The notes under the pieces are model-generated. The model saw only the letters and a program-made list of their open reading frames with translations. It did not search any database and was not told the DNA's origin. This document shows positions 1,591 to 25,924 of a DNA stretch of 64,000 nucleotides, in pieces (positions within the stretch are counted from its first letter, which is position 1; each line of letters starts with the position of its first letter). This DNA comes from Halovivax limisalsi. GTDB lineage: Archaea > Halobacteriota > Halobacteria > Halobacteriales > Natrialbaceae. A program made the translations under genes and the position numbers. The DNA lies in assembly GCF_023093535.1 (NCBI RefSeq), contig NZ_CP095757.1, positions 248,001-312,000 of the forward strand. The letters are read 5' to 3'.

Positions 1591-2469
1591 TCACCCGGTC
1601 GGTTCCGGCGGTTCGGTCACGTTCGACCGCCCCGCGTGAGTCGCGAGCCACGTCTGGAAGGTATCCTGATCGACGACCGTCACGGTCGCCCGCATGGTGG
1701 CGTGGCCGGTCCCGCAGAACTCCGTGCAGCGAGCGCGGTACGCGCCGGGTTCGGTGACGTTCGTCCGCAACGCGGTCTCGCGACCGGGGTAGACCGTCCG
1801 CTTGAGGCCGAGCGCGGGTACCGAAAACGCGTGGAGCACGTCGCGACTCGTCGCGAGGAGGCGGACCTCCTCGTCGGCGGGCAGGACGAGTTCGCCGCGC
1901 GTCGTCACGTTCGCCGTCGGATACCTGAAGCGCCACTCCCACTGGGCGGCGAGGATCTCGACGTCGGCCGCGGCGGCGGTATCGTCGGGCGCCAGTCCAC
2001 CGTCGCCACCGATCGCTGCGTCGCCGCCGACCGCCCCGGCCGGCGCGGGTGTGAAGTAGGGCGTGGCGAGGACGGGGTAGGCCGCGACGCCGGCGAAGAC
2101 GAGAACCAGCGCCGACGCGACCACCCACGCCACCTCGAGGACCGGTCGTTCGTCGCTCCGGTTCGCCGGGGTTCCCTCTCGAGCGGTCCCGTAGACGAGC
2201 AGGGCAAACAGGCCCGCCGTGAGCGGCAGCGCGACGACCAGCAACTCGACGGCGAGGCCGTCGATGCGATCACGATTCGCCGATTGGGCGACGACGGGTG
2301 CCGCACAGATCGACAGCCCGACTATCGAGGCGACCAGCCACCAGATCGACCGACCGTTACTGGCCCGGAGCTGCCGGCTGAGCAGCCGCCAGCCCAGTCG
2401 CGCGACCGAGAGGATCGCCGCCCGGACGATGCGGGCGGCGCCGCCGTCCGAATCGGCGGATCGGCCCAC
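1591..2469 (-). CDS. coxB: cytochrome c oxidase subunit II (CuA-binding)
   Basis: A 292-residue heme-copper oxidase subunit II. It has two N-terminal membrane segments (about residues 42-62 and 76-95, with a further hydrophobic stretch near 110-130) and an external cupredoxin domain. The CuA ligands are visible: H213 in DVLHAFSVPAL, then C248, E250, C252, H256 and M259 in CTEFCGTGHATM. The usual aromatic pair after the first His (often WW or FW) is F-S here. The subunit should take electrons from a blue-copper carrier and pass them to subunit I. It is the last gene of the leftward string, 3 bp after the beta-propeller lipoprotein gene. Its partner subunit I (10759-12360) lies in the opposite string, which is unusual. 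Confidence 0.93.
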   Translation of the reverse strand: MGRSADSDGGAARIVRAAILSVARLGWRLLSRQLRASNGRSIWWLVASIVGLSICAAPVVAQSANRDRIDGLAVELLVVALPLTAGLFALLVYGTAREGTPANRSDERPVLEVAWVVASALVLVFAGVAAYPVLATPYFTPAPAGAVGGDAAIGGDGGLAPDDTAAAADVEILAAQWEWRFRYPTANVTTRGELVLPADEEVRLLATSRDVLHAFSVPALGLKRTVYPGRETALRTNVTEPGAYRARCTEFCGTGHATMRATVTVVDQDTFQTWLATHAGRSNVTEPPEPTG

Positions 2470-2472
2470 GGG

Positions 2473-3447
2473 TCAGTACCGGCGCTCGAACGCGGTCCCC
2501 GACTCGCCGACGACGACGGGCGGGGAGCGGGCCGTGCCGAGCGTGACGGCGTGCAGTTCGTTTCCAGAGGGCAACCGGTCGGGGTCGGTCCACTCGCCGT
2601 ACCGTCGCTCGTAGACCGTGCCGTCGACCGCGACCGCCAGGGCGTCGTACCGGTCACGGACGAGCGCGCCGACCGGTTGCTCGCCGAGCCGCGAGCGCGT
2701 CCACTCCTCGCCGTCGTAGCTGAAGACGGTCCCGTTGCCGCCGGCGACGGAGACGTGCCCGTCGTCGACGGCCGCGACGGCCGCGAAGTCGACTTCGGCG
2801 TCGGCGATCCCGATCCGGTCCCAGGTGCGACCGCCGTCGGTCGATGCGAAGACGCCGCCGTCGGTGTCGATCGCGTAGGCGCCGGCCGGCGCCGAGAGGT
2901 CGATGTCCGCGAGCGTCGAGCCGCTCCCGGGTTCGACGACGTCGGCCCACGCGACTGTCGCACCGTCGCGCCGCCCGGCGAGCAGTTCGCCGGACGTGTT
3001 GACGACGAGGAGCCGTTCGGCGCCGTCGACGCCAGCGGCCGCGACCGCGCTCCAGGAACTCGTCTTCTCATTCGGGGCGGAGAGATCGACGGCGTGGTCG
3101 GCGACGGCGTCGTAGTAGCCGAGCGCGCCGCCGTCCCCGGCGACCCAGATCGACCGCCCGGTGCTCGTCACCGCCGCGCTCCGGAGGCCGTCGCCGGCTC
3201 CGCCGATCCCGCTCTCGAGTCGAACGGTCCAGTCGCCGTCGTCTCGCGCGATGACGGTTCCGTCCTCGCCGACCGCGTACGCGCCGTCCGCGGCGGTCAC
3301 GACGTCGTACAGCGCGGCGTCGGTGGGGACGTCGGCGGCGACCCACCGGGGCTCGTCGTCGTGACAGCCGGCGATCGCCGTCGAGGCGCCTGCGGTTCCG
3401 ACCGCCGCGAGCAGCCGTCGGCGCGAGGTCGTGGGTCGGTCGGTCAT
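2473..3447 (-). CDS. Tat lipoprotein with BNR/Ycf48-like beta-propeller
   Basis: A 324-residue protein. The N-terminus has a twin-arginine stretch (SRRRLLAAVG) and a lipobox AIAGC, so it is probably exported by Tat and lipid-anchored on the outer face. The rest is short repeats with AYAVGEDGTV, ALGYYD and an Asp-box-like STDGGRTWDRI, typical of BNR/Ycf48-like propellers. In photosystems Ycf48 is an assembly factor; a similar role for the oxidase is my inference. The start overlaps the upstream stop by 4 bp (ATGA), suggesting translational coupling, and coxB follows at once. A cytoplasmic paralogue is encoded at 14616-15944. Confidence 0.8.
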   Translation of the reverse strand: MTDRPTTSRRRLLAAVGTAGASTAIAGCHDDEPRWVAADVPTDAALYDVVTAADGAYAVGEDGTVIARDDGDWTVRLESGIGGAGDGLRSAAVTSTGRSIWVAGDGGALGYYDAVADHAVDLSAPNEKTSSWSAVAAAGVDGAERLLVVNTSGELLAGRRDGATVAWADVVEPGSGSTLADIDLSAPAGAYAIDTDGGVFASTDGGRTWDRIGIADAEVDFAAVAAVDDGHVSVAGGNGTVFSYDGEEWTRSRLGEQPVGALVRDRYDALAVAVDGTVYERRYGEWTDPDRLPSGNELHAVTLGTARSPPVVVGESGTAFERRY

Positions 3448-4955
3448 CCGTCGGTCGCCCCCGCGTCGTCCCCGTCGGCGATCGCCGGGTCGGTGGCGTC
3501 GAGGGTCGTCTCCGGCCGGAGATCGTCGACGGCGTCGGTGGCGTTCGTGCGGTGGTACTCGCTGGTCGGCGTGAACGCGCCGGGGGCGGAGGTCCGTCTG
3601 AGGATGGTCGAGACGCGGACGACGTAGGCGAAGAGGACGGCCAGCGGGCTGAACGCGACCGCCAGCGCCAGGCTCACGAGGCCGAGTAGCCACCCCTCGA
3701 AGGCGACGGGCGGGTAGCCGCTCGCGTAGATCATGATGACGAGCGACGAGAGCAAGATCGCGGCGGTGCCGCTGTAGGTGATCAGGCGCGAGAGCCGGGC
3801 GAGCTCGCGCTGGAGGTAGATCGTCGTGAAGTACTGGCGCGTCGCGTCGGCCGCGACGAACAGCTCCCGGAGGTCTGCGAGCAGGGCGGCCGACCGGTCG
3901 TCGAGGTTCGCGTCGAACCGGTCGGCGAGGCGACGGGCCTCGTTCGCGGCGCCGGCGTAGTCGTGGTCGAGCGTCGGCAAGACGACGTCGAACACCGACG
4001 AGACCTCGCCCGTGAGGCGGGCCGACAGGGACTCGGCGTGCTCGCGCGTTCGCGCGCCGAAGCCGCAGATCGACTCGCGTCCGTCGGTCGAGGCGTCCGA
4101 CCGGCGCGGGGACCCGCCGCCCAGGACGGCGTTCGCGTCGCCCTCGTCCGCGTCCTCGTCGACCCGCTCGCCGCTCGAACAGGCGGTCACCAGCGCCCCC
4201 GCCCGCGTGCCGAGCGAGCCGGCGAGTCTGGCGAGAAACGGCGCGGGATCGGTCGGGCTGACGCCGTCGCCGTCCGTCTGGGACTCGACCCGGCGACGGA
4301 ACTCCTGGACGCCGTCGATGCGCTCGGTGAGTCGATCCGGCGTGCCGAACAGCCGCGAGATGATGAGCTGGTTCACCGCGACGACGATCGGGATGAACGA
4401 GAACAGGCCGGCGATCATCGTCGAGAACATGGTCGTCACGAATCGGCTCTCGCGAACGCCGATGACGTCGCTCAGCCCGAGCGCCATCGCGAGGACGAAG
4501 ATGCCGGCGACGAAGCCGCCGACGACGACCATCCGATCGGCCTCTAACAGGAGCCAGCGCCGCCAGCGCCGTCGTTTCGTCGAGTCGGACAGCAGCCGGG
4601 CGGCGATCCGGATCCCGGTCCAGAGGATTCGCAGGCCGATCCCGACGAGGGCGACCGTCAGTTCGAGCGCGTACCGGAGGGCTGACCAGCCGACCCCACT
4701 GTCGGTGGTATCGGGTTCGTCGCCCTCGGGATCGCGTTCGGTCGCGTCCCGGCCGCGTCCGTCGGGGGTATCGGATCGGTCGCCGTCGAGATGGCGGTCC
4801 TCGGTGGTTTCTGAGGCGTCGCCGGTCCGACGGTCGGTCGTCCGTTCGCCGTCGGGCCCGACTCGCGGATCGGCGTCCCCTGCGAGCGGTCGGTCGGCGT
4901 CGCCGGTGTCGGCCGAAGAACGGTCCGACCGGGGGCCGGCGGGCTCGTCGGTCAC
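3444..4955 (-). CDS. multi-pass membrane protein of unknown function
   Basis: A 503-residue protein. The first 90 residues are charged and disordered-looking (rich in D, R, T and G). Hydrophobic segments follow near residues 92-118, 145-165 and 175-205, then a hydrophilic domain of about 180 residues, then two or three C-terminal membrane segments (about 385-460). The hydrophilic domain looks helical and contains RLADRFDANLDDR. I do not recognise a named family. It is translationally coupled to the beta-propeller lipoprotein downstream and follows DUF389 by 25 bp, so it is part of the leftward oxidase-linked string. Confidence 0.7.
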   Translation of the reverse strand: MTDEPAGPRSDRSSADTGDADRPLAGDADPRVGPDGERTTDRRTGDASETTEDRHLDGDRSDTPDGRGRDATERDPEGDEPDTTDSGVGWSALRYALELTVALVGIGLRILWTGIRIAARLLSDSTKRRRWRRWLLLEADRMVVVGGFVAGIFVLAMALGLSDVIGVRESRFVTTMFSTMIAGLFSFIPIVVAVNQLIISRLFGTPDRLTERIDGVQEFRRRVESQTDGDGVSPTDPAPFLARLAGSLGTRAGALVTACSSGERVDEDADEGDANAVLGGGSPRRSDASTDGRESICGFGARTREHAESLSARLTGEVSSVFDVVLPTLDHDYAGAANEARRLADRFDANLDDRSAALLADLRELFVAADATRQYFTTIYLQRELARLSRLITYSGTAAILLSSLVIMIYASGYPPVAFEGWLLGLVSLALAVAFSPLAVLFAYVVRVSTILRRTSAPGAFTPTSEYHRTNATDAVDDLRPETTLDATDPAIADGDDAGATDG

Positions 4956-4980
4956 AGTTCCCTCCGTCCGGCCCGTCGCC

Positions 4981-6027
4981 TCACAGTCGGCCCGAAACCG
5001 TGCCGAGCAGCCGCAGCGTGACCAGCAGGAGGGCGAACAGCACGCCCACCCGTCTGAGGATCGCGCCGCGCACCGTGCGGGTCCGAGTGCGCTCGGACGG
5101 GTGGTAGCCGACGATCCACAGGGCGACGATCGCGCCGACGTTGATCGCGACGAGGTTCACCGCGACGACGACGAACGACCCGAGCGCGATCGTCGGTTCG
5201 CCCCAGGCGACGCTCACGCCGACGACGCCGATCGGGGGCATGATCGCGGCGGCGATCATCACGCCGATGAGGTCGGCGATGCCGGTCGTCGCCATGCCGA
5301 GGCCGCCGGCGATCCCCGAGCAGAGCGCCACGGTCACGAGCAGCGAGGGCGGCAGGCCGTGACTGCCGAGGCCGAGGCTCGCCTCCAGGTTCACGGCCGC
5401 GGAGACGACCGTCGAGGTCCGCGCGAGCGTCGCGAAGGAGAGCGCGCTCGCGGTCGCGACGCCGATGCCGAGGAGTTGCAACTCGACGCCGCGGCCGAAC
5501 AGCCGTCGCTCGTCGAGGACGGTCGCGACGCTCGAGGCCATCGCCGGGCCGAGAAGCGGCGCGATCACCATCGAGCCGACCAGCACCGCGACCGAGTTCA
5601 GCAACACGCCGGCCGTGGCGACGATCCCGCTGATCGCGGTCATAGCCGCGAAGATGACCGACGGTAGCAACTGCGAGCGCGCCTTCGAGCGCAGTTCGCT
5701 TCGCGAGACCCGCTCGAACGAGAGCCACTCCTGCCGCGTCGGCCACGACGGACTCGGGTCGACGACCGCCATCGGCGCCTCGACCACGAGGGTGAGGTCG
5801 CCCGGGAGGCGAGCCAGTTCGTCCTCCAGCGGTTCGACGGCGTGTTCCGGCACCGGCGCCGTGATCGTCCACCCCTCGCCGTCGCTGCAGTCGGCGAGGC
5901 CGTACTCGAGGTCGTGTCGGTCGAGGACCGTCCGGACGTCGCGGGCCGTCGACGCGTCCGTCAGTACCGTCAGCAGCCGGGTCGTGGACCGCCGGTCGTC
6001 CGTACGATCCCGACCGAGGGGGATCAC
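4981..6027 (-). CDS. DUF389 (TIGR00341-type) membrane protein
   Basis: A 348-residue protein. An N-terminal soluble part of about 120 residues (RLLTVLTDAS at the start) is followed by five to seven membrane segments with the DUF389 motifs NSVAVLVGSMVIAPLLGP and GVMIAAAIMPPIGVVGV. The family is widespread in archaea and actinobacteria; its transport role is not settled. It overlaps the upstream Cys-containing gene by 4 bp and precedes the 503-residue membrane protein, so the leftward genes probably share one mRNA. Confidence 0.88.
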   Translation of the reverse strand: MIPLGRDRTDDRRSTTRLLTVLTDASTARDVRTVLDRHDLEYGLADCSDGEGWTITAPVPEHAVEPLEDELARLPGDLTLVVEAPMAVVDPSPSWPTRQEWLSFERVSRSELRSKARSQLLPSVIFAAMTAISGIVATAGVLLNSVAVLVGSMVIAPLLGPAMASSVATVLDERRLFGRGVELQLLGIGVATASALSFATLARTSTVVSAAVNLEASLGLGSHGLPPSLLVTVALCSGIAGGLGMATTGIADLIGVMIAAAIMPPIGVVGVSVAWGEPTIALGSFVVVAVNLVAINVGAIVALWIVGYHPSERTRTRTVRGAILRRVGVLFALLLVTLRLLGTVSGRL

Positions 6028-6653
6028 AGTAGCGCGAGGTCATCGGTATCTGGTGGCGCGACGTCGGGGAATGTTCGCTCGAACAGCGACCTGACGAGGG
6101 TGCGAACCGTTTCGAGTCGATCGCCGTCGGCGGGGCGACACGACCCGCCGCAGCGACCGATCGGCCCGTTCGGCCCCTCGACGTACGCGAGGCGGCCGTT
6201 ACACCCCGGACACCGGGGCTCGGCGTGGGCGGCCATCCACTCGACGTCGAAGTCCGAGCGTGCGAGGCGCTCGCCGAGGGCATACCAGACGATCTCGTCG
6301 CGCGCGTCCCGTCCGGACGCGGCCTCTTTGAGCCGACCGAGAGCGAGCGCGCCGCGTCTGTAGAGCGCCTCGTCGGGCTCGCCGTGACGACCGTGACAGC
6401 GACGAAAGTACGCCGTCAGCGCTCGTTTCGACGACCGGACGGCGCCGGTCGTGAGCGGGGCATCGAGGGCCGCACTGGTCGCGCGATCGGCGGGCTGTGG
6501 CGCCCGCTCGGGGCGACCCCGTGCGTCGTAGTGGGCCTCTCGCGAGAGAGACGCACCGCTGTGCGGACAGAACGCGTGTTCACCGATCATGGGTAGTGCG
6601 GTCGAACCGACGACGCGGTCGACCGGGACCCAGCGTAGCGGCCCATCGCCCAT
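6024..6653 (-). CDS. Cys-containing protein, first gene of the leftward string
   Basis: A 209-residue soluble protein. Two Cys clusters can be seen: an early CPHSG and a C-terminal CPGCNGRL followed about 20 residues later by CGGSC, which together could bind zinc. I do not recognise the family. The start at 6653 is supported by a TATA-like CTTATTT about 30 bases upstream on this strand, giving a leaderless transcript. A second in-frame ATG at 6590 (MIGEHAF) is the main alternative. The 4-bp overlap with the DUF389 gene makes this the promoter-proximal gene of a five-gene string ending in coxB. Confidence 0.65.
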   Translation of the reverse strand: MGDGPLRWVPVDRVVGSTALPMIGEHAFCPHSGASLSREAHYDARGRPERAPQPADRATSAALDAPLTTGAVRSSKRALTAYFRRCHGRHGEPDEALYRRGALALGRLKEAASGRDARDEIVWYALGERLARSDFDVEWMAAHAEPRCPGCNGRLAYVEGPNGPIGRCGGSCRPADGDRLETVRTLVRSLFERTFPDVAPPDTDDLALL

Positions 6654-6793
6654 AAGGAACCGACATACTGGACGGATCTGAAATAAGGAATCGTGGCTTT
6701 CGAGGTTGCTATCGGAATTGTACAGATGTTTCGTCAAAAAATGTAACAAATTTGGGGCCCTTATCCGTGCCGGGTTCGAACGGCGGCTGCACC
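6654..6793. promoter_or_regulatory. divergent promoter region of the oxidase locus
   Basis: These 140 bp separate two opposed gene strings. Leftward, a TATA-like CTTATTT lies near 6684-6692. Rightward, GCCCTTATCC lies near 6756-6765, about 30 bases before the ATG at 6794. The middle (6700-6750) is clearly AT-richer than its surroundings, as expected for a shared control region. No clear inverted repeat was found. Confidence 0.5.
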
Positions 6794-7237
6794 ATGGCAC
6801 CCGGTGATCTCGCTCCGACCGATGCGTCCGCCGCCGACCGGTGGTACTGGTACGTCCTGATCGCCTACCCGGCGTTGAACCTGCTCGGGATCGTCGCGAT
6901 CGCCCGGCTCGCCGGCGGCGGGTCGATCCTCGCGTCGAGTCTCGCGAGCCTGACCATCCTGATCCTCGTCACCGCCGCCGGCGTCGTCGCGATTCCCGCG
7001 CTCTGGCGGGATATCGAGTTCGTCACGCGTGAAACCGAGGCGTGGACGCCCGACCGCGACGTATACGTGGGTTCGGCGATCGCCGTCCCGGCGGGGCTCG
7101 GGCTGCTCTCCGGCCTGCTCGCCGGCGTCGGCGTCGCGATCGCCATCGCGCTCGTCGCGTTCCTCCTCGCGACGGTGACCGTCTGCGTCGTCTACCTCTT
7201 CAACCGCCACCGGACCGTCGGATTGGCGACCCGATGA
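6794..7237 (+). CDS. membrane protein of unknown function
   Basis: A 147-residue protein with four predicted membrane segments (about residues 18-38, 43-66, 90-112 and 114-138) and short loops; residues 13-20 read DRWYWYVL. The ATG at 6794 is preferred to an in-frame upstream start because a TATA-like box sits about 30 bases before it. I do not recognise the family. It is the first gene of the rightward oxidase-linked string. Confidence 0.65.
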   Translation: MAPGDLAPTDASAADRWYWYVLIAYPALNLLGIVAIARLAGGGSILASSLASLTILILVTAAGVVAIPALWRDIEFVTRETEAWTPDRDVYVGSAIAVPAGLGLLSGLLAGVGVAIAIALVAFLLATVTVCVVYLFNRHRTVGLATR

Positions 7238-7391
7238 CCCCGCGGCGATCGAATCGGCCAGGTCGCGGCCAGCGATCGGATCGCTCGGGGGCAAAATGCA
7301 TCGCTCGCGGCGATCGGTTCGGCTGCAATCGGGGTGATCGATCCGCCCGTCGTTCCACGTTCTCTAGGATTCGCCACCACTTTTAGGTGCG

Positions 7392-7404
7392 CAACCACTG
7401 GTTG
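7392..7404. promoter_or_regulatory. 13-bp inverted repeat upstream of the permease
   Basis: CAACCA-C-TGGTTG is a perfect inverted repeat about 12 bp downstream of a TATA-like ACTTTTAGG (near 7378-7386). It sits at the expected transcription start, where a repressor would block. The permease ATG is 100 bp further on, so the leader would be unusually long for this genome. Which protein binds is unknown. Confidence 0.35.
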
Positions 7405-7504
7405 TAGCCGGTGGCAGGCCCGGATGACGCGCCCTCGGCGCGGATGACCTCCTGGCCGTACCGACCAGCCGCGAGGCTCTCGCCGCCCGATCCCCACGAC
7501 TCCC

Positions 7505-9142
7505 ATGCTCTCCGTGATCAACCCGCTCGTAGAATCCAGTAGCGCGGTCGCCGGCGCGGCCGGATCGATCGCCGCCTCTACGCGGACGGGGCTCGAACTC
7601 GCGGTGCGGTCCCCGGACGCTGCGATAGTGGGCCCGAAAGTCGTCCCCTCGCACGGCGGGGACGGTGGCCTCGCGGCTCGCGGGTCGTTCCTCCCCGCTC
7701 GCGGTTCCGAGGCCTCGCTAGCGCTCGGCCGAAGCCTCCAGTCGGTCGGCCTCGCGGCTCGCGGGTCGTTCCTCCCCGCTCGCGGTTCCGAGGCCTCGCT
7801 AGCGCTCGGCCTCGCACTCGCGATCAGACTCCTCGCCCTGCTCGGCTCGCTCCTGGCGGGGATCGTCGAGGGATTCCTGATCGCCTTCGAGATGGCGTGG
7901 GAGACGTGGTGGGCGCTCGTGTTCGGCTTCACGGTCACCGGCGCCGTCAGGGAGTTCGTCTCCGCGGCCGCCCTCACCGACTACCTCGGCGACGACGACT
8001 GGCGCTCGATCGGCTACGGGGCGCTCTTCGGCGCCTCCTCGTCGAGCTGTTCGTTCTCCGCCGTCGCGACGACCCGGACGCTCTTTACGAAGGGGGCGTC
8101 GGCCGCCGCGAGCCTGGGGGCGTTCCAGTTCGCGAGTACGGACCTCGTGGTGGAACTCTTCCTCGTCGTGCTGTTGCTGCTCGGCTGGCAGTTCGCCGTC
8201 GCCGAGCTGCTCGGCGGCCTCGTCGCCGTCGTCGTCCTCGGCATCGTCTACCGACGGTTCGTGCCCGACGCGTGGATCGAACGGGCGCGGAGCCACGCCC
8301 GCGCGCTCGACGCACCCGAGTGTGCGGCGTGCGGAATGGGAGTCGCGCCCGACGACGAGGGAACGGTCGTCGAACGGGTCGACGGAGACGTGCGGTACTT
8401 CTGCGGCGACGGCTGTCGCGGCGCCTACGAACCCGAGACCGACCGGGACGCGGTGACCGCCGGACCCGAACTCCTCTCGGGCGACCGCTGGCGGTCGGCG
8501 ACGGCCAAGGCGATGGCCGAGTGGGACATGCTCTGGCGCGACATCGTCTTCGGGTTCGCCGTCGCGGGCCTGCTGGCCGCGCTGGTTCCCGCGGCCTGGT
8601 GGACCGCCGTCTTCGGCGTCGGCGCCGAGGGGAGCGCCGTTCGACTCCTCTCGAACGTCGTCCTCGGCGCCCTCGTCGGCGCGGCGACGTTCCTCTGCTC
8701 GGTGGGGAACGTCCCCTTCGCCGTCGTCCTCTGGCAGAACGGCGTCTCGTTCGGCGGCGTCCTCGCGTTCGTCTTCGCGGACCTCCTGATCCCGCCGCTC
8801 GTCCGCACCTACCACCGCTACTACGGCCCCCGGATGGCCGGCGTAGTCGCCGTCGCGTTCTTCCTCGCGGCCGCGACCGCCGGGCTCGCCGTCGAGGTGC
8901 TCTTCGGCGGGCTGGGCCTCGTCCCGCCCGTGACCGACGTCGGCGGGACGGTTCCGGGATCGATCGTCACGCTCCTCAACGTCCTCGCGCTCCCCGTCCT
9001 CGTCGTCCAGTACCTCGTCACCCTCGATCCGGCCGAACGGGTCCGGCTCGGCGACCGACTCGCCCCGGTCGTCGCCGGACTCTACATCCGGGCGTCGCTC
9101 GCTCTCGGGCGACTCGCGTCCGCGATCGAGGAGCGGCGGTGA
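7505..9142 (+). CDS. predicted permease (PF03773/ArsP type) with Cys-rich insert
   Basis: A 545-residue protein with two permease halves. The first (about residues 115-250) contains GASSSSCSFSAVATT; the second (about 340-450) contains TFLCSVGNVPFAVV. These fit the paired Cys/Pro membrane motifs of PF03773 permeases, some of which export organoarsenicals. Between the halves is a TRASH/YHS-like cluster (CAACGMG, then YFCGDGC, residues about 275-305) likely to bind a soft metal. Residues 55-102 are a low-complexity segment encoded by a two-copy DNA repeat that does not belong to the family. Placement in the oxidase string suggests metal or metalloid handling, perhaps copper; this is inference. 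Confidence 0.8.
   Translation: MLSVINPLVESSSAVAGAAGSIAASTRTGLELAVRSPDAAIVGPKVVPSHGGDGGLAARGSFLPARGSEASLALGRSLQSVGLAARGSFLPARGSEASLALGLALAIRLLALLGSLLAGIVEGFLIAFEMAWETWWALVFGFTVTGAVREFVSAAALTDYLGDDDWRSIGYGALFGASSSSCSFSAVATTRTLFTKGASAAASLGAFQFASTDLVVELFLVVLLLLGWQFAVAELLGGLVAVVVLGIVYRRFVPDAWIERARSHARALDAPECAACGMGVAPDDEGTVVERVDGDVRYFCGDGCRGAYEPETDRDAVTAGPELLSGDRWRSATAKAMAEWDMLWRDIVFGFAVAGLLAALVPAAWWTAVFGVGAEGSAVRLLSNVVLGALVGAATFLCSVGNVPFAVVLWQNGVSFGGVLAFVFADLLIPPLVRTYHRYYGPRMAGVVAVAFFLAAATAGLAVEVLFGGLGLVPPVTDVGGTVPGSIVTLLNVLALPVLVVQYLVTLDPAERVRLGDRLAPVVAGLYIRASLALGRLASAIEERR
7667..7811. repeat. dispersed GC-rich repeat, two 64-bp copies inside the permease gene
   Basis: Copies at 7667-7730 and 7748-7811 look identical and are separated by a 17-bp spacer, giving a period of 81 bp (27 codons) that keeps the frame. 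The encoded unit reads GLAARGSFLPARGSEASLAL. The reverse complement of the whole structure, spacer included, reappears at 15301-15427 in another gene. Confidence 0.9.
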
Positions 9143-9307
9143 TCGGACCGACGAACCGGGCGTGAGCCGTCGATCCAGACGGTCCGCCCGGCCGCAGCCG
9201 TCGATCCAAACGATCCGCCCGGCCTCGCCGCTCCGTCGTCCGTTCCGCCGACCGGGGACGGTCGCACTGATCCGCCCTCGCGTCACCGATCCGTTCTCCG
9301 CTCACCC

Positions 9308-10762
9308 ATGATCCAACACCCGCTCGCCGCCGTCCTCGACCGGACCGACCCCGTGGGCGTCGTCTGTCTCGTCGCGCTCGCGGCGACGCACGGCCTCGTT
9401 CGCCTGACCGAACGGTACCTGCCCGCGTACGTGGTCGAACTCGGGTACGGACCGATCGTCGTCGGCGGCCTGGCGACGGTCGGGTTCGGCGCCAGCGCCG
9501 TCGTCGCCGAACGCGGGACTGCGTCGGGTCGGGACGTGCCCAGCGGCGCGGAATCGAGCGGGGCCGACGCGAGTGCGAGCGAGGCGGCTCACCCCGCCGC
9601 GTCGATCGGGCCGGCGGCCCCACTGCGCACGTCGCTGCTGGCCGCCGCCGGTCTGTGCGTCGTCGCCGGGGCCACGACGTTGGACGCGCTGCTCGGCACC
9701 CCGCTCTCCGCGCTGGGATGGCTCGCCGTCGCCGTCGCGGCGCTCCAGCCGTGGCACGCGAGCGGGCCGACGCGCTCGCTCTGGCCGTTCGAGACGCTCG
9801 TGCCGTCGATTCCGTCCGGCCGCGATCGGCGATCCACGTCGAGCGAGTCGCGGTCGATCCGGGGGACCGGCGTCGTGGTCGGCGGCGTCTCGGTCGCCGT
9901 CGCCGCGATCGTCGCGACGGCCGCCGTCGCGAGCGCCGAGGAGCTCGTCGCCGGGATCACCCTCCTCGCGACGGCCGGGGCCGCGGTCGCGCTCGTCGCC
10001 GCGGTGGCGCTCGGGACGAGCGAGGGCGAGCGCGACGGACGGGAAGCGGGTCGGCGGCCGAACGCCGACGAGGACGTTCGAGACGGAGCGAGCAACCGGT
10101 CCATCGCATCCAGCAGTGTCGGATCGCAACGGCGGGGCGACTCGTCGATCGAGCGCGTTCGGACCGCGTGGTCGGGCCGTTCGGGCGCCGACCGACCGGC
10201 GATCGTCGGCGACGCGCTCGTCCGGTTCGCGGTCGCCGGGATCGCCCCGTTCCTGGTACTCCTCGTCGTCGATCGGGGGATCGGCCTCTCGGTCGGCCCG
10301 CTCTCGCTCGAGCCAGCCGGCGCCTTCGCGCTCTTCGTGCTCGCCGAGGCGGCGGGCGCGATTCTGGGGGCGCTCGCGTCGGAGTCGCTCGCTGCGCGGC
10401 TCGGTCGACGGGCCGCGCTGGCGGGCGGGCTCGTGATCCTCTCGCTGGTGCCGACGGCGTTCGTCGCGATCGCGGCCCGCCCCGCGCTCGTCGCGGCCGC
10501 GTTCGGCCTCTTCGGGTTCCGGACCGCGATCGAGCCGTTGCGGCCGGCCGTCGGTATCGACGGGCGGGCCGTCCCGGTCCTCGAATCGCCGCCCCCGCCC
10601 GACCTCCGCTCGGCGCTCCGCCTCGCCCTCGTGCCCGCGCCGCTGGTCGCCGGCGTCCTGTACGCGATCGATCCGCTGCTCGCGTTCACCGCCGCGACGA
10701 CGACCGGGGTGCTCGGCGTCCGCGAACTGAGTCGGGCGTTCGACTTCGGGGCGGGACGATGA
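9308..10762 (+). CDS. MFS-like multi-pass membrane protein
   Basis: A 484-residue hydrophobic protein with about ten membrane segments, interrupted by two long polar loops (about residues 75-100 and 240-290). The N-terminus (VRLTERYLPAYVVELGYGP) and the later GLFGFRTAIEPLRP resemble Major Facilitator Superfamily transporters found in haloarchaea, but I cannot place it in a subfamily or predict a substrate. Its stop overlaps the coxA start by 4 bp (ATGA), so the two are almost certainly cotranslated. That coupling suggests a role tied to the oxidase, for example delivering a cofactor or metal. Confidence 0.65.
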   Translation: MIQHPLAAVLDRTDPVGVVCLVALAATHGLVRLTERYLPAYVVELGYGPIVVGGLATVGFGASAVVAERGTASGRDVPSGAESSGADASASEAAHPAASIGPAAPLRTSLLAAAGLCVVAGATTLDALLGTPLSALGWLAVAVAALQPWHASGPTRSLWPFETLVPSIPSGRDRRSTSSESRSIRGTGVVVGGVSVAVAAIVATAAVASAEELVAGITLLATAGAAVALVAAVALGTSEGERDGREAGRRPNADEDVRDGASNRSIASSSVGSQRRGDSSIERVRTAWSGRSGADRPAIVGDALVRFAVAGIAPFLVLLVVDRGIGLSVGPLSLEPAGAFALFVLAEAAGAILGALASESLAARLGRRAALAGGLVILSLVPTAFVAIAARPALVAAAFGLFGFRTAIEPLRPAVGIDGRAVPVLESPPPPDLRSALRLALVPAPLVAGVLYAIDPLLAFTAATTTGVLGVRELSRAFDFGAGR

Positions 10763-12360
10763 GCCGGCGGTCGACCCCCCTTCGCACGCTCGGCCGGGCG
10801 ATCCGTCGGCTCCGCGGCGGGACGTTCGCGGTCGGTCACCGGCGGCTGGCGCGGTGGTATCTCGGCTACGCGCTCGCGTTCGGCCTCTGGGGCGGACTCG
10901 ACGCGCTGTTGCTCCGGACCGCGCTGGTCACGCCGTGGCTGGCTCGCTGGAGCGCGCGCACCTACAACGCCTTCTTCACGACCCACGGGGTGACGATGCT
11001 CTTCCTGTTCGCCCTGCCGGCGATCTGGGGGATCGCCTACGCCGCGATCCCGCCGCTGGTCGGCGCGGACGGGCAGGCCCGTCCCCGACTCGGCGTCCTC
11101 GGCTTCGCACTCTTGCTGCCCGCGGCGGCGTCGATCCGCGCCGGTACGGTGGGCTCCATCCTCGAGTTCGGGCGCTTCGAGCCGGTGGCGACGGGCTGGA
11201 CGCTGTACGCGCCGCTGAGCGCGGCGTCCGCGAACCCCGCCGTCGACACGTTGCTCGTGGGCCTCCTGCTCGTCGCCGTCGGGACCACGCTGACCGGGGT
11301 GAACCTCGTCGCCACGATCGTTCGCGGCCGGTCCGTGCCGTGGACCCAGGTCGACGCGTTCGCCTGGACGGTGCTGACGAGCGCCGCGATGGCGGTGGTC
11401 GCGTTTCCGGTTCTCGCGCTCGCCGCGGCGTTGCTGCTCGCCGATCGGACGCTCGGGACGGCCGTGTTCGCCGCCGGCGGGGGCCCGACGGACTGGCTGC
11501 ACCTGTTCTGGTTCTTCGCCCACCCGCTCGTCTACGTGCTCGTGTTGCCGCCGATGGGGATCGTCAGCCACGTCCTCCCGCGCTTTTCCGGCCGCCGGCT
11601 GGTCGGTCGTCGCTCGGCGGTCTACTCGACGCTCGCGATCGGCGTCGTCTCCTTCGGCGTCTGGGGCCACCACCTGTTCGTCGCGGGGATCGGCCCGTCG
11701 GCCCGCCTCGCCTTCATGGCGGTGACGCTGGCGGTGGCGCTGCCGAGTTCGGCCAAGCTCTTCACCTGGCTGGCGACGCTCTGGGGCGGGTCGGTCCGCC
11801 TCACCGCGCCGATGCTCGCCGCCGTCGCCGCCGTCGGCTGTTTCGTCGCCGGCGGCGTGACCGGCGTTGCCCTCGCCGTCCCGCCGATCGCCGTCCGGTT
11901 CAACGGCACCTACTTCGTCGTCGCGCACTTTCACCTGCTGCTCCCCGGCTTCGTCGGGTTGGGGCTCCTCTCCGGCGTGTACTACTGGTATCCGCTGGCG
12001 ACCGGCTACCGGTACCACCGCGGCCTTGCCCGCCTGCACGTCCGGCTCACGGTCGTCGGCGTCGCCGTCGCGTTCGGCGCCCTGCTGCTCGCCGGCATCG
12101 CCGCCCAGCCCCGCCGCGTCGCGACCTACCGCGGCGCGTACGTCCCACTCCAGCAGCTCGCCACGGCCGGTGCGTACGTTATCGCCGCCGCCCAGCTCGC
12201 CTTCCTGGCGACGCTCGCCCGATCGCTCCGGCGGGCCGACCCCGCGCCGGCGGACCCGTGGAGCCTCGCTGACGCGCCGGCACACGCCCGCGAGTGGCGT
12301 CGCGATACCGAGAATGCGCGCCGTCGCGCCGAGGGCGATCGCACCGACGGCAGCGGGTAG
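10759..12360 (+). CDS. coxA: heme-copper oxidase subunit I, atypical A family
   Basis: A 533-residue, 12-helix subunit I. Heme and copper ligands can be assigned: H76 (THGVTM) and H392 for the low-spin heme, H390 (VAHFH) for the high-spin heme, and H255, H304 and H305 (AHPLVY, GHHLF) for CuB. Y259 sits where the His-Tyr crosslink forms. K333 (SSAKLFTW) marks a K channel, and R452/R453 the heme propionate pair. The run FTWLATLWGGS places it in the A family. Unusually, the pump glutamate of HPEVY is Leu (HPLVY), the A2-type YSHP is also absent, and the Mg-site HD before TYFVVAHFH is N382-G383. Proton pumping may be altered. It is coupled by overlap to the MFS-like gene; no subunit III gene is in the window. 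Confidence 0.92.
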   Translation: MSRRSTPLRTLGRAIRRLRGGTFAVGHRRLARWYLGYALAFGLWGGLDALLLRTALVTPWLARWSARTYNAFFTTHGVTMLFLFALPAIWGIAYAAIPPLVGADGQARPRLGVLGFALLLPAAASIRAGTVGSILEFGRFEPVATGWTLYAPLSAASANPAVDTLLVGLLLVAVGTTLTGVNLVATIVRGRSVPWTQVDAFAWTVLTSAAMAVVAFPVLALAAALLLADRTLGTAVFAAGGGPTDWLHLFWFFAHPLVYVLVLPPMGIVSHVLPRFSGRRLVGRRSAVYSTLAIGVVSFGVWGHHLFVAGIGPSARLAFMAVTLAVALPSSAKLFTWLATLWGGSVRLTAPMLAAVAAVGCFVAGGVTGVALAVPPIAVRFNGTYFVVAHFHLLLPGFVGLGLLSGVYYWYPLATGYRYHRGLARLHVRLTVVGVAVAFGALLLAGIAAQPRRVATYRGAYVPLQQLATAGAYVIAAAQLAFLATLARSLRRADPAPADPWSLADAPAHAREWRRDTENARRRAEGDRTDGSG

Positions 12361-12515
12361 GGCCTCGCCCACGATCCGATACGCGCCGCGACCCGGTCCC
12401 GACGCCGCGTCGACCACGATCGCGGCCGACGACGAACCCATCCCCGGTCGCCGGCTAGTCGAATTGTCGGTAGACACTACGATCCGTAACGACCGAATTA
12501 CACCACCACTCACCC

Positions 12516-12842
12516 ATGCCATCAACGGAACACACCGACGTCGCGCTGATGCTCGTCCAACTGATCGCGATAACGATTCCCTCGACCGTCGTGCTGGTCA
12601 AGCAGTTGCGCCGGTCGGACAACCTGAAGTGGCGGTTCCGAAAGCTGAGCTTCGGGCTCGTCGGCTCGTGTATCGCGTCGCTGATCGCGGCCGCGATCGC
12701 CCTCCTGTCGTACTTCGTCGTGAAATTGCAGCTCCCCAATACGATCACCGCGGGTCTCCTGCTCGTGATCGTCGGGCTCCTCCCGCTGGGGGCGTTCATC
12801 GCCGTCCTCTATCGGGAACACCGGAAGGAATTCGGCCCCTGA
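12516..12842 (+). CDS. small membrane protein
   Basis: A 108-residue protein with three hydrophobic segments (about residues 8-28, 45-68 and 75-98) and a charged C-terminus (YREHRKEFG). I do not recognise the family. It lies 155 bp after coxA in the same direction. A role as an accessory oxidase subunit is possible by size and position but nothing in the sequence proves it. Confidence 0.6.
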   Translation: MPSTEHTDVALMLVQLIAITIPSTVVLVKQLRRSDNLKWRFRKLSFGLVGSCIASLIAAAIALLSYFVVKLQLPNTITAGLLLVIVGLLPLGAFIAVLYREHRKEFGP

Positions 12843-12922
12843 ATCGCCACGCCCGGTTCCGGCCGGCCTCGGGTTCGATCCCCGCGCGTGGTATCGGCGG
12901 ACGTCCCGCCGATGACGCACCG

Positions 12923-13285
12923 ATGGCAAACCGCATGCACCCCGACGCAGACGATGACGACGAATCGCTCGGCGACGGCCCGACGGAGCCCCGTCCGCTC
13001 TCCGAGCTGACGGGCTTCAAACGAGACCAGCTGTTCGTCATCCGAAAGCTGGCCGATCGCGATCCGCACGGGCTCGTCATCAAGGACGAACTGAACGGCT
13101 ACTACGAAGAAGAGATCAACCAGGCGCGCTTTTACAAGAATCTCGGCGAACTCGTCGAGGACGGCTACGTCGAGAAGCGCCCGATCGACGGCCGAACCAA
13201 CGCCTACCGGCCCACCGACGGTGCCACCGAGCGCCTCGACTCCCACCACGAGTGGCAGCGACGCTGTCTCCGCATCGAACACTGA
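12923..13285 (+). CDS. PadR-like winged-helix regulator
   Basis: A 120-residue protein. After an acidic N-terminal tail comes a winged-helix domain (about residues 30-110): QLFVIRKLADRDPHGLVIKDEL, then a recognition region with RFYKNLGELVEDGYVEKR, typical of haloarchaeal PadR-like regulators. There is no sensor domain. It lies between the small membrane protein gene and the dehydrogenase-like gene in the oxidase string, so it may control that string. The ATG at 12923 begins MANRMHPD. Confidence 0.75.
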   Translation: MANRMHPDADDDDESLGDGPTEPRPLSELTGFKRDQLFVIRKLADRDPHGLVIKDELNGYYEEEINQARFYKNLGELVEDGYVEKRPIDGRTNAYRPTDGATERLDSHHEWQRRCLRIEH

Positions 13286-13341
13286 CCGGTCAGCCGTCGG
13301 CGGTCGACGTCGCCGACCGCCGACGGCACGATGATTCCACG

Positions 13342-14619
13342 ATGACGACCACTCGAGATCCATCCACCGACGGACCCGACAGCACAGCGCCCGATCTCTG
13401 CGCGCCGCGGACGTACGTGTCGAACGCCACGCGTCGGCTCGACGTCCCGGACGAGATCGGCCATCACCTGCACCACGTCGACCGACGCCAGCGCGTGTCG
13501 GTGCCCTTCGGGCGCGACGACGGCACCGTCGCGGTCCGCGAGGGCTATCGCGTCCGCCACGACCGGGTGCGCGGCCCGTGCCTCGGACCGCACCGGTATC
13601 AGGCGGGCCTCGACGGCGACGAGTTCGCCGGGCTCGCCGTCGCCGCCTCGATCAGCGCCGCGATCGCCGACGTCCCCTTCGGCGGCGCCGCGGGCGGCGT
13701 CGCGATCGACCCGTCCGAGCTCTCTCGCGAGGAACGCGCGCGGCTGACGCGATCCTACGCGACCCGCGTTTGCGGCGTGGGGACGAGCGACGACGTCCTC
13801 CTGCCGGGCGCCGGCGCCGACGAGCGAACCGTCGCCCGGATCGCTGACGCCGTTTCGGGCAGCGCCGGTGCCCCTGAACGGGGCGCCGTCGTCGGCAAAC
13901 CGCCGGCGCTCGGCGGGGTCCGATCCGTCGAGCCCGCGGGCGGCTACGGCGCAGCCCACGCGACCCGGGACGTCCTGGAGACGGACCTCGGCCGGCCGCT
14001 GACGGAGGCCACGATCGCCGTCTCGGGCGCCACCGTCGTCGGCGACACGACGGCGCGGTTGCTCGACTTCTGGGACGGCACCGTCGTCGCGATGAGCGGC
14101 GAGCGCGTCGGCCTCGCGACCGACGACGGCGGGCTCGACCCGAGCGTCGCCGCGAGCCACCTCCAGCGACCGAAGACCGCCCCGTCCTACGAGGGCGGTG
14201 AGGTGACCGGGACGGAGAACGTCCTCGAACGCGACGCCGACGCGCTGGTGGTCGCCTCGCCCGCGGCGACGGTCACCGAGGCGAACGCGGAGGCCATCCG
14301 CGCCGACCTGGTCGTCGAAGCGAGCGTCGGCGCGGTGACGCCCGGCGGAGCGCAGGTCCTCGGGGAACGCGACGTCCCCGTCGTTCCCGCCGCGCTCGCC
14401 TCGACCGGGCGGATGATCGCCGCGTCCCTCGAGTGGCACCGCAGCGTCGGTCGCGACCGGTCGAGCGACGCCCGCGTCGCCACCGAGTTCGAGTACGCGG
14501 TCACGAGCGCGATCGACGACGTGCGAGAGCGCCGCGAGCGCTGCGGACTGCGCTGGCGCGAGGCCGCCTACGGCGTCGGCTGCAGTCGTATCGCCGCCGC
14601 CCACGAGGTGGTCGCGTGA
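13342..14619 (+). CDS. Glu/Leu-dehydrogenase-like protein lacking active-site residues
   Basis: A 425-residue protein with the two-domain layout of Glu/Leu/Phe/Val dehydrogenases. The catalytic Lys motif GGAKGG is GGAAGG (in VPFGGAAGG), the substrate Lys of MTWK is lost (SISAAI), and the Asp motif PAPDVNT is replaced by LLPGAGADE. The Rossmann motif GFGNVG reads GATVVG. The C-terminal part stays close to the family (AEAIRADLVVEASVGAVTPGG). The fold is therefore kept while catalysis, and probably NAD binding, are lost. It overlaps the next gene by 4 bp. A sensory or scaffold role is possible; I infer a pseudoenzyme. Confidence 0.85.
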   Translation: MTTTRDPSTDGPDSTAPDLCAPRTYVSNATRRLDVPDEIGHHLHHVDRRQRVSVPFGRDDGTVAVREGYRVRHDRVRGPCLGPHRYQAGLDGDEFAGLAVAASISAAIADVPFGGAAGGVAIDPSELSREERARLTRSYATRVCGVGTSDDVLLPGAGADERTVARIADAVSGSAGAPERGAVVGKPPALGGVRSVEPAGGYGAAHATRDVLETDLGRPLTEATIAVSGATVVGDTTARLLDFWDGTVVAMSGERVGLATDDGGLDPSVAASHLQRPKTAPSYEGGEVTGTENVLERDADALVVASPAATVTEANAEAIRADLVVEASVGAVTPGGAQVLGERDVPVVPAALASTGRMIAASLEWHRSVGRDRSSDARVATEFEYAVTSAIDDVRERRERCGLRWREAAYGVGCSRIAAAHEVVA

Positions 14620-15944
14620 TCGATCGACTCGACGAGTCGGTCACGGACGCGCTCGCGTGGCTCCGGCGCGTCGAACGGAACGGCGACGGGCCCAGGACCG
14701 ACGGAGGCACTGCCGCCGACGCCGAAGCGGCAGACGCCTCCGCCGGTCAGCGCGGTGCGACCGGTGAGAATGGTCGCGGTGCGAGCGAGGGGACTGGCGC
14801 GTGGCGCACCGTCGACGGACCGACCTCGCGGGCGCTCCACGGCGTCGTCCACGGCCAGGACGGCGCGTACGCCGTGGGTGAAGGTGGGATGGTGCTCCGT
14901 CGCGGGACCGACGGCTGGCGAATCGTCTTCGAACGTGGCCCCGGCGTGGCGAAGAACACCCTCCGCGACGTCGCCGCGACGGCCGACGGCTGTCGGGTGT
15001 GGTTCGCCGGCGACAGCGGCGCACTCGGCTACTTCGACGTGGCCGACGGCCGCAAGAGCGATTACTCCGCCCCGATGGAAAAGACCAGCACGTGGGAGGC
15101 GATCGCCGTGGCCGGCAAGACCGGCGAGGAGCGCGTCCGGATCGCGAACGGCTCCGGCGAGGTCCTCGACTGCACCGTCGAGGACGGCTGTCCGACCTGG
15201 GGCGAGGTCGTCAAGCCCGGTGGCGGTTCGACGATCAACGCGCTCACCGTCGGCTCGGGAGATTTCTACGCCGTCGACACCAGCGGCGGGGTATATCGCG
15301 AGGCCGAGCGGCAGCGAGGCCTCGGAACCGCGAGCCGCGAGGCCGACCGACTGGAGGCTTCGGCCGAGCGGCAGCGAGGCCTCGGAACCGCGAGCGGGGA
15401 GCGAGAGCGACCCGCGAGCCGCGAGGGCGCCACCGATGACGGTGACTCGTCGACCGCACCAGGTGGTGACAACGGCTCGGCGATCGAGGACGGACCCACG
15501 CCCAGCGAGGGCGGACCGTCCGCGAGCGCCGACGCGGCCGACCGCTGGGAACGCATCGGCGTCGAGAACGCGCAGGTGAACTTCCACGACGTCTGGGCGA
15601 CCGGGTCGACCGTCTTCGTCGCCGGCGGCGACGGGATCGCCTACCGGTACGACCCCGAGTGCGAGAACTGGACGCCACTGTACGTCGGCGACGGGTCGCT
15701 CCGGGCGATCCGCACGCGAGGGGCCGAGCGAATCGCGGCCGCGACCGGCGGCCGGCTCTACGAACGCGACGAGGGCGTTCGCTGGGACGAGCCGGACGTC
15801 TCGACCGAAGCGTCGCTGGCCGGACTCGCCCTCGCTCGATCCGGCGAGACGGTCGAGGCGGGCCTGGCCACGACGCCGGTCGACGTCGTCGTCGGCGAAA
15901 GCGGCGCGATTCTCGAACGGGAGCACCCGTCAGATGGCGGTTGA
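14616..15944 (+). CDS. cytoplasmic BNR/Ycf48-like beta-propeller with repeat insertion
   Basis: A 442-residue protein paralogous to the lipoprotein at 2473-3447 (shared AYAVGE, ALGYFD/ALGYYD, SAPMEKTSTW/SAPNEKTSSW). It has no signal peptide, so it should be cytoplasmic. Its GTG start overlaps the dehydrogenase-like stop (GTGA). Where the paralogue has the Asp-box loop STDGGRTWDRI, this protein has about 80 extra residues (about 229-308): a repeat-encoded stretch with QRGLGTAS twice, then a Ser/Gly/Asp linker, before DRWERIGV resumes. The insertion comes from a dispersed DNA repeat. The pair of propellers, one on each side of the membrane, suggests assembly factors for the oxidase (inference). 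Confidence 0.8.
   Translation: MIDRLDESVTDALAWLRRVERNGDGPRTDGGTAADAEAADASAGQRGATGENGRGASEGTGAWRTVDGPTSRALHGVVHGQDGAYAVGEGGMVLRRGTDGWRIVFERGPGVAKNTLRDVAATADGCRVWFAGDSGALGYFDVADGRKSDYSAPMEKTSTWEAIAVAGKTGEERVRIANGSGEVLDCTVEDGCPTWGEVVKPGGGSTINALTVGSGDFYAVDTSGGVYREAERQRGLGTASREADRLEASAERQRGLGTASGERERPASREGATDDGDSSTAPGGDNGSAIEDGPTPSEGGPSASADAADRWERIGVENAQVNFHDVWATGSTVFVAGGDGIAYRYDPECENWTPLYVGDGSLRAIRTRGAERIAAATGGRLYERDEGVRWDEPDVSTEASLAGLALARSGETVEAGLATTPVDVVVGESGAILEREHPSDGG
15301..15427. repeat. dispersed GC-rich repeat inside the cytoplasmic propeller gene
   Basis: This is the reverse complement of the permease repeat at 7667-7811. The core AGCGAGGCCTCGGAACCGCG occurs twice, 60 bp apart. The 17-bp spacer of the permease copy is kept exactly (GACCGACTGGAGGCTTC). 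The first unit lacks 21 bp (7 codons) found in the permease units, so the frame is unaffected. The second unit is nearly full length. Confidence 0.88.
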
Positions 15945-16045
15945 GACCCCGTCCGCGTCGATGAGCCGACGGACACCGCCGTTCGACCGTCCATTCCGCG
16001 GTCCGATTCATCCCGACGTCCGACCATGCGTTCCGTTTCACTCCG

Positions 16046-16906
16046 ATGATTCCCGACAAACTCCGTTCCTCGCTCGATCGAGTCGCCGTCACCGATCACC
16101 GCCTCGTGCGCCGCCTGGGGGACCGCTTCGACGCCCTCGCACCCCCGATTCCCGACACGCTCGTCCTCTCGCTCGCCGCCCTCCTGTGGCTCGTCCTGCT
16201 CGCGGGCTGGCTCCCCGATCTCGGCCCGCCGCCGGCGCGGGTCGGCGCGCCCATGGCCGCGCCCGGCGTGCCCGAAGCGATGGCGACGTCGAACGGGCTC
16301 GATGGCGCGCTCGCGTACCTCCTCATGTGGGGGACGATGATGCTGGCGATGATGCTGCCGTCGCTGGTCTCCGTCGCTCGCCGAATTCGCGAGGCGGTCT
16401 GTCCCACGCCCCGGATCCTCGGCCGGTCCGTCGCCGCCTTCCTGCTGGCCTACGGCCTCGTCTGGACGCTCGTCGGGACCGTGCCGCTGTCGGTCGCGAC
16501 GCTCCTGGGGCTTCGCGATCTGTTGACCGGGTCCGTCTTCGGGATGGACGCCGGTCGACTCCTCCTCGGCGGCCTGCTCGCGTTCGCGGGCGCCTACCAG
16601 TTTACCGGGTTGAAGCGGGACCTCCTGGCCCTGTGCGCTTGCGGACGACCGGTTCCGCACCGCCCGTCTGTCACCTGCATGTTTCGCGACGGTCTCCGGT
16701 ACGCCGCGAACTGCGTCGGCTGCACCTGGCCCCTGTTCGCCGCGCTGGTCGCGATGGGCTCGATGAACGTGGTCGCCATGGCGGGCGTGACGCTCGTCGT
16801 GGTCGTCGAGCGAATCGCGCCGCGGAGCGACGACCTGGCCCGCGCCTGGGGCGTCGTGCTGTTCGGCGCCGCTGCCGTCGCGCTGACCCTCGGCGTTCCG
16901 TACTGA
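16046..16906 (+). CDS. DUF2182 Met-rich membrane protein, putative metal handling
   Basis: A 286-residue protein with about seven membrane segments. Family hallmarks are the Met-rich LLMWGTMMLAMMLPS (about residues 92-106), YQFTGLKRDLL followed by CACGRPVPH, and LRYAANCVGCTWPLFA. Met and Cys/His clusters in and near the membrane suggest soft-metal binding such as copper, but the family has no firm biochemical role that I know of. It ends the rightward oxidase-linked string, about 100 bp after the propeller gene, and could supply copper to the oxidase. Confidence 0.85.
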   Translation: MIPDKLRSSLDRVAVTDHRLVRRLGDRFDALAPPIPDTLVLSLAALLWLVLLAGWLPDLGPPPARVGAPMAAPGVPEAMATSNGLDGALAYLLMWGTMMLAMMLPSLVSVARRIREAVCPTPRILGRSVAAFLLAYGLVWTLVGTVPLSVATLLGLRDLLTGSVFGMDAGRLLLGGLLAFAGAYQFTGLKRDLLALCACGRPVPHRPSVTCMFRDGLRYAANCVGCTWPLFAALVAMGSMNVVAMAGVTLVVVVERIAPRSDDLARAWGVVLFGAAAVALTLGVPY

Positions 16907-18084: not shown

Positions 18085-18251
18085 CACTTTCACCTCGCTC
18101 TCGGAGCTACGTCAGTGTTTCGGCGAGCGGGAGCCACGGCGACGTTTGCGGGCGATCGTTGCCGGTGACCGATGGAAATACGTGCGGCCGGGATGGAAGG
18201 TGCGACGACGGCCGGTTCACCCGGCTATCGCTCGATCATCACCCAGGAATC

Positions 18252-20878: not shown

Positions 20879-21624
20879 GCGCCGGTTCCGCCGCTCGATC
20901 GCTCGACGGATTTCATCCCACCGTCCTCCGGGCCGGTTGGGCGAACCGGTCGGTAACGATCGACCCTAGCGCCCCGGAATCTGAAATCGTCGACGGAGAG
21001 CGATTCGACTCTTCGGACCACAGGCGGGCGAGAGCTTTTTGTCTCGGTGGTGTGTTGCGTAACATGGCGACCAAAACCCTCCAATCGGGTCTGGAAGCCA
21101 CGCGTCTCGGGTGCTGGTTCCACCCGGGACATTTCCTGAACGCAGTCCCCTGCGACTGCCGAAGACGCCGGCTTCCAGCGAAGGCTACGGAGTAGTGTCT
21201 ATCATATCCACCGAGCATATTCGCAATCTAATAGTTTTAGACTCGATCGCGTCCCGGCGCCGAAGGGCACGCGGACGGCACGCCGACCGAGAGCGACGGC
21301 GTTCGGTCGTTTCCGCCGAGTCCACCCCGGCGAGCAGGGGCGAGATCGCGGTGGAATCGGGATCCATCAGGCGTGAGGGCGGGTTGGCGCACGCTGGGGG
21401 ACACTCGCAGGGTGGCGATGCTGCAGCCGAGGAGACGCGAGGCAGGATCGATCTAGCCGAGCCCATCGACCACCAGCACACAGCGACACAGGTTACGGGT
21501 GGCTACCGACCCGTAGCGCCGTTACCAGATCGATGATATAAAATTAATGTACCTACTGTCCGATTAGTGTGCCACAACTCGGGCAATAGTTCTAAGATTC
21601 TGTGATCGAGACTGTTCGCCATTG
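20879..21624. other. 746-bp region without a supported gene
   Basis: Longer reading frames here have poor composition and no recognisable motif. A short frame at 21064-21195 (43 residues, three Cys, opening MATKTLQSGL) has a T-rich promoter-like CTTTTTGTC about 28 bases upstream, but I would not call it a gene. Near 21532-21547 the AT-rich GATATAAAATTAATG is a plausible TATA box for the protease gene at 21625, implying a leader of about 50 bases. The middle may be degraded sequence. Confidence 0.4.
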
Positions 21625-25818: not shown

Positions 25819-25924
25819 CCGCGTCGGGGCCGAGATCACCGCCGATCGCAACGCCGGATCGTTATGCAAATACCGGTTGGTTCGGAAAATCATTAGTTCC
25901 TGGAATTGTGACGGTCATATATCA

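Follow-up and report, generated by a model that had tools for sequence, protein, structure and literature searches.

We describe a cluster of 12 to 14 genes, among them the gene for subunit I of a heme-copper oxidase, that recurs in seven families of haloarchaea, at about 41 loci in all. The cluster appears to be an undescribed haloarchaeal oxidase module; no description of it was found in the open-access literature, most subscription journals being outside that search. We judge, with slightly better than even confidence, that it is a haloarchaeal module dedicated to an aa3-type terminal oxidase, with its own copper-handling and assembly proteins.

The locus in Halovivax limisalsi

The window, by which we mean the whole 64,000-nt stretch analyzed, consists of bases 248001–312000 of the complete 3.89 Mb chromosome of Halovivax limisalsi. 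Every gene assigned to positions 1591–16906 in the preliminary description was recovered at the same coordinates, most of them with Pfam or NCBIfam matches. The minus-strand string comprises, in order, Zn209, a small Cys-rich putative zinc protein (6024..6653, probable start at 6590) in which Cys29, 148, 151, 168 and 172 are invariant in the alignment; a DUF389/TIGR00341 membrane protein (4981..6027; PF04087, 93.5 bits); TM503, a helical membrane protein conserved in 41 sequences (3444..4955); PropB, a YCF48-like propeller (2473..3447); and CoxB, the CuA subunit II (1591..2469; COX2, 64 bits; TIGR02866, 144 bits against a cut-off of 147.7). The plus-strand string starts with TM147 (6794..7237), a small membrane protein without a Pfam family, and continues with an ArsP_1 permease carrying a TRASH/YHS-like Cys motif insert (7505..9142; PF03773, 203 bits; DUF7576, 27.8 bits), an MFS-like membrane protein (9308..10762; weak MFS matches below cut-off) and CoxA, an A-family heme-copper oxidase subunit I without the D-channel according to its residue table (10759..12360; COX1, 376 bits). 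These are followed by TM108, a small membrane protein recognized by locus comparison and without a Pfam family over cut-off (12516..12842), a PadR-like regulator (12923..13285; PF03551, 30 bits), the glutamate-dehydrogenase-like pseudoenzyme GdhL (13342..14619), a second YCF48-like propeller, PropA (14616..15944), and a DUF2182/PpoB2-family membrane protein (16046..16906; PF09948, 131 bits against a cut-off of 28.7).

The overlapping starts and stops reported earlier are present as 4-base stop/start overlaps at Zn209/DUF389, TM503/PropB, MFS/CoxA and GdhL/PropA. The two strings indeed diverge from one region, but its length, previously given as 140 bp, is probably about 203 bp (6591..6793) because Zn209 probably starts at the conserved Met22. 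This divergent promoter region, common to both strings, contains blocks conserved with the other loci of divergent layout, as seen in an alignment of 19 intergenic regions. There are no RNA family matches in the first 20 kb of the window and no tRNA in the window as a whole.

The cluster is directly adjoined by an Orc1/Cdc6 gene (16954–18093). Orc/Cdc6 homologues also lie close to the cluster at loci L139 (Haloprofundus salinisoli) and L186, and close to Zn209 copies at L209 and L210; such neighbours may reflect replicon-borne spread of the cluster. Further along, at 21622–30586, giant subtilases of 1398 and 1569 aa are encoded side by side; their carboxypeptidase-regulatory-like and CARDB domains are repeated.

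Distribution of the gene cluster

We searched 195 genomes of the order for CoxA and 391 of the class for Zn209, and compared the neighbourhoods of the matches. The core that occurs together at the ~41 loci consists of Zn209, DUF389, TM503, PropB, the ArsP permease, the MFS-like protein, CoxA, PadR, TM108 and PropA, with single genes absent at some loci (for example, PropA at L189 and L191, and Zn209 at L242). Membership varies for DUF2182, an HMA protein, GdhL, TM147 and a CPA2/TrkA-C antiporter pair. Since the same genes sit together at about 40 other loci, their grouping in the window is not a matter of chance. The proposal that these genes form one system thus withstands the comparison, their proximity extending well beyond a single genome or a coxA/coxB pair; co-occurrence of subunit I with both propellers is borne out in the seven families, while DUF2182 and the dehydrogenase-like protein, which had been counted among the defining neighbours, are not constant.

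Two forms of the cluster can be distinguished. Type 1, which is widespread, is mostly a single same-strand string with a canonical CoxA, L126 being rearranged. Type 2 consists of divergent strings and is represented by 18 loci in the family to which the window belongs; TM147 occurs in type-2 loci and in some type-1 loci. The divergent layout is therefore not general: leaving aside L126, which is rearranged, it was found in this family only. The cluster is carried on plasmids in Natrinema zhouii, Haloprofundus salinisoli and Haladaptatus halobius.

Matches to Zn209 were found in 49 of the 391 genomes searched in the class. Weak paralogues of it (31–43% identity), situated outside clusters, were not counted. 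It was not found in the four same-genus genomes searched, and the distribution is therefore patchy. When TM503 was searched in 295 genomes of the phylum, strong, cluster-grade matches appeared only inside the order, and a scan of a genome contig collection gave mostly CoxA of bacteria, with none of the cluster's relatives among the results. Pairwise distances for the individual genes correlate with those of CoxA (r from 0.75 to 0.98, with no vertical control gene alongside), which supports, without proving, joint inheritance of the module genes. The dN/dS ratio is well below 1 in all genes with a usable estimate.

Propellers, putative metal proteins and the dehydrogenase-like protein

The view that the locus contains two paralogous propellers, one outside and one inside, is in agreement with the predicted locations: PropB, which few of the cluster loci lack, carries a Tat motif together with a lipobox, and PropA has no signal peptide. 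PropB matches PF14870 with 35.7 bits (cut-off 27); PropA does not match it and alone reaches no Pfam or NCBIfam family, its propeller kinship coming from alignment with PropB. The duplication is old, given that PropA and PropB form two separate clades with support of 100. The family match connects PropB to the photosystem II assembly factor YCF48, although the module has no photosystem, contains two paralogues (predicted inside and outside), and the score is far below the YCF48 equivalog cut-off. By analogy, this weak similarity suggests an assembly role for the propellers.

Met and Cys residues are conserved in an alignment of 27 copies of the DUF2182 protein, whose family PF09948 is now named 'PpoB2 copper chaperone'. 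PpoB2 has been reported (PMC2855505) to pass copper on to a tyrosinase. The Marinomonas mediterranea PpoB2 gene is likewise clustered with a copper oxidase gene, but PpoB2 serves a tyrosinase, whereas copper transfer by the DUF2182 protein of the cluster is putative. The ArsP permease has a weak similarity, far below cut-off, to the SO_0444 Cu/Zn efflux family. The link to metal in the earlier reading of these proteins as agents of copper delivery is supported by family membership.

TM503 represents a cluster clade within a large haloarchaeal family. Its AlphaFold model, for which one plasmid-derived row was left out of the alignment, has a pLDDT of 69.6 and no fold match in the PDB. A homologue in Natrinema zhouii (WP_226778228.1; L138, 6900–8375) is labelled as cbb3-type oxidase subunit I; with no Pfam support for this label and no fold match for the window homologue, it is probably a misannotation.

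GdhL is homologous over its full length to the haloarchaeal glutamate dehydrogenase GdhB (NF041398) and matches ELFV dehydrogenase Pfam models, but its score of 303 bits is far below the NF041398 family cut-off and the equivalents of the catalytic lysines K89, K113 and K125 are lost, as they are in 17 of 17 type-2 copies, in contrast to an active glutamate dehydrogenase, where these lysines are catalytic or bind the substrate. The suspicion that the enzyme is inactive thus applies to the window and to type 2; it does not generalize, as the dehydrogenases at three type-1 loci (L120, L132 and L187) keep all three lysines. Because its dN/dS is low, GdhL is, judged from its sequence, a maintained pseudoenzyme rather than a decaying gene.

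Oxidase subunits and alternative readings

CoxA residues are numbered below in what we take to be the numbering of the Rhodobacter enzyme, mapped by motif. The six His that bind heme a, heme a3 and CuB, and which define the heme-copper oxygen reductase superfamily, are present in all 38 aligned cluster CoxA sequences (17 type-2 and 21 type-1), as are Tyr288 and Lys362; W280 is kept in 17/17 type-2 sequences. In the latter, Glu286 is replaced by Leu, Asn121 by Tyr and Asn139 by Gly or Ala, and position 132 is variable, with Asp in 6/17. Glu286 is kept in 21/21 aligned type-1 sequences, most of which retain GHPEVY and the D-channel pattern. Type-2 CoxA is one clade (SH-aLRT 100), and type-1 CoxA is not monophyletic, with stand-alone CoxA sequences falling among the cluster ones in the tree. 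Among the type-1 sequences, the two closest to type 2 (L189 and L191) have lost N121 and N139 and still have E286, so type 2 apparently lost its D-channel in steps. Variation at this motif is also seen at L244, where Gln occupies position 286, and in the type-1 cluster L242 (genome G180), whose CoxA has separately lost the Glu of GHPEVY (to Val). An intermediate cluster (L188/L243, genome G301) combines the divergent layout, CPA2 antiporter genes and a degenerate GDH with a CoxA that still has GHPEVY.

Oxygen reductases of the A types have D- and K-channels, whereas the B and C types have no D-channel and an alternative K-channel (PMC3084760). Type 2 shares with the A1-type enzymes of that classification the ligands of the binuclear centre, Tyr-I and the K-channel Lys. 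However, the D-channel residues by which A types are recognized (including Glu278, or the Tyr that replaces it in A2) are missing in the window and in all type-2 sequences, whose motif is AHPLVY and not YSHPAVY, so that the YS motif of the A2-like sequences aligned is also lacking. The A-type K-channel (Lys354, Thr351, Ser291 and Tyr280) is present: Lys and Tyr are invariant, Thr is replaced by Ser in all cluster members, and the S291 position is Ser in 13/17 type-2 sequences (by sequence, the window included), with Gly aligned in 4/17. Assignment to the B types is contradicted by the canonical Lys, which those enzymes replace, and by the position of the sequences inside the haloarchaeal A family. 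Under the criteria of PMC3084760 type 2 therefore fits neither A, B nor C, having no D-channel and yet a canonical K-channel. A nitric oxide reductase, in which the FeB Glu motif H-X-(Arom)-X-E replaces the motif of the active-site Tyr (PMC3084760), is ruled out by HPLVY with its Tyr present. The cluster CoxA resembles the haloarchaeal aa3 CoxA1 in grouping with haloarchaeal A-family CoxA sequences, in a tree that does not include the named CoxA1 proteins of Halobacterium salinarum (cytochrome aa3, P33588) and Haloferax volcanii (HVO_0907; PMC8305020); it differs in that the stand-alone loci inspected are without this gene set and that type 2 has no D-channel. We tentatively propose, as a possibility that falls short of an even chance, that CoxA of type 2 functions as an oxygen reductase of the A family but outside A1, A2, B and C, having lost the whole D pathway, using the canonical K path only and having its own twin-propeller assembly system.

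The CoxB of the window has a full set of CuA ligands (CTEFCGTGHATM). It had been regarded as a regular part of the system, but CoxB is found beside PropB only in the window and in genomes G408 and G422, that is, at 3/18 type-2 loci and at none of type 1, and is better described as an add-on of one sub-lineage. This narrow distribution would fit a chance neighbour that is not the partner of the cluster CoxA. We regard this as improbable, as the gene lies in the same string with a 3-base gap to PropB, holds the same position in three genera, and forms a single CoxB clade (sister to Natrialbaceae coxB1) with a matching CoxA sub-clade, and as, in the window genome, each of four further COX1 genes has a COX2 match of its own beside it, one of them weak. 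This genome has seven COX1-family genes in 3.9 Mb. Elsewhere it encodes homologues of heme A synthase and a fusion of CoxA with CoxC, in accord with the expectation that subunit III and heme A synthesis come from outside the locus. A coxA1-coxB1 pair is present elsewhere in all 12 type-2 genomes without a local CoxB that were searched (G055, G193, G358, G375, G272, G351, G402, G225, G268, G362, G298 and G262) and in G398. The pair is absent from the complete window genome and none was seen in G408 (85% complete); G422 has both the pair and the local CoxB. In Haloprofundus salinisoli there are four A-type COX1 but just one COX2, which is unpaired. Type-1 loci were also searched for a CuA domain that might have been overlooked, and none was found; the lone CuA motif match, at L194, runs through a stop, and L194 is not a cluster locus. 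It is plausible that the CuA subunit is supplied in trans at loci without CoxB.

Several observations count against the oxidase module: stand-alone CoxA sequences fall among those of type-1 clusters, 4/17 type-2 sequences align Gly at the S291 position, and a CuA gene is missing from the surroundings of CoxA at most loci. The last of these would suit a copper/zinc homeostasis island, where a non-respiring CoxA-like protein serves as a sink for electrons or copper or as a sensor, the permease is a metal exporter, copper is bound by DUF2182 and HMA proteins, and PadR has a sensing role. The ArsP_1/TRASH permease in nearly all clusters, HMA at 12 loci and the missing D-channel of type 2 point the same way, and the permease could export metal for reasons unrelated to oxidase assembly. 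Nevertheless, we hold such an island to be unlikely, given that the invariant heme and CuB ligands, Tyr288 and Lys362 in 38/38 sequences, together with the GHPEVY and D-channel pattern of most type-1 CoxA, are what is expected of an oxidase. More doubtful still is that type-2 CoxA and GdhL are both becoming pseudoenzymes, retained for a structural or regulatory role while catalyzing little or nothing. The losses of defining residues in the two proteins fall in the same clade, and L243 could be an intermediate on this path, with its degenerate GDH and intact GHPEVY; a dead oxidase, however, would be expected to lose some of the metal ligands or the cross-link Tyr, and CoxA keeps all of them under purifying selection.

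In the oxidase module that we favour, CoxA would be the catalytic subunit, with its copper handled by DUF2182, the ArsP_1/TRASH permease and, at some loci, the HMA protein. The lipoprotein propeller outside and the propeller inside may act as assembly factors on the two faces of the membrane, and PadR would regulate the module. Electrons would enter via a CuA subunit, which we infer to be the local CoxB in the window and perhaps a CoxB in trans elsewhere. Since the D-channel is missing while the K-channel lysine is kept, the window form of CoxA may take up protons via the K path only and pump fewer protons or none.

What emerges is an apparently undescribed, conserved and partly plasmid-borne gene module around a terminal oxidase of haloarchaea, which nominates the propeller and DUF2182 proteins as archaeal oxidase assembly factors. 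Its divergent form amounts to a natural experiment, in which the D-channel was lost in one A-family clade and the active centre and K-channel were retained, so that the role of the D-channel in pumping is testable through natural relatives instead of point mutants.
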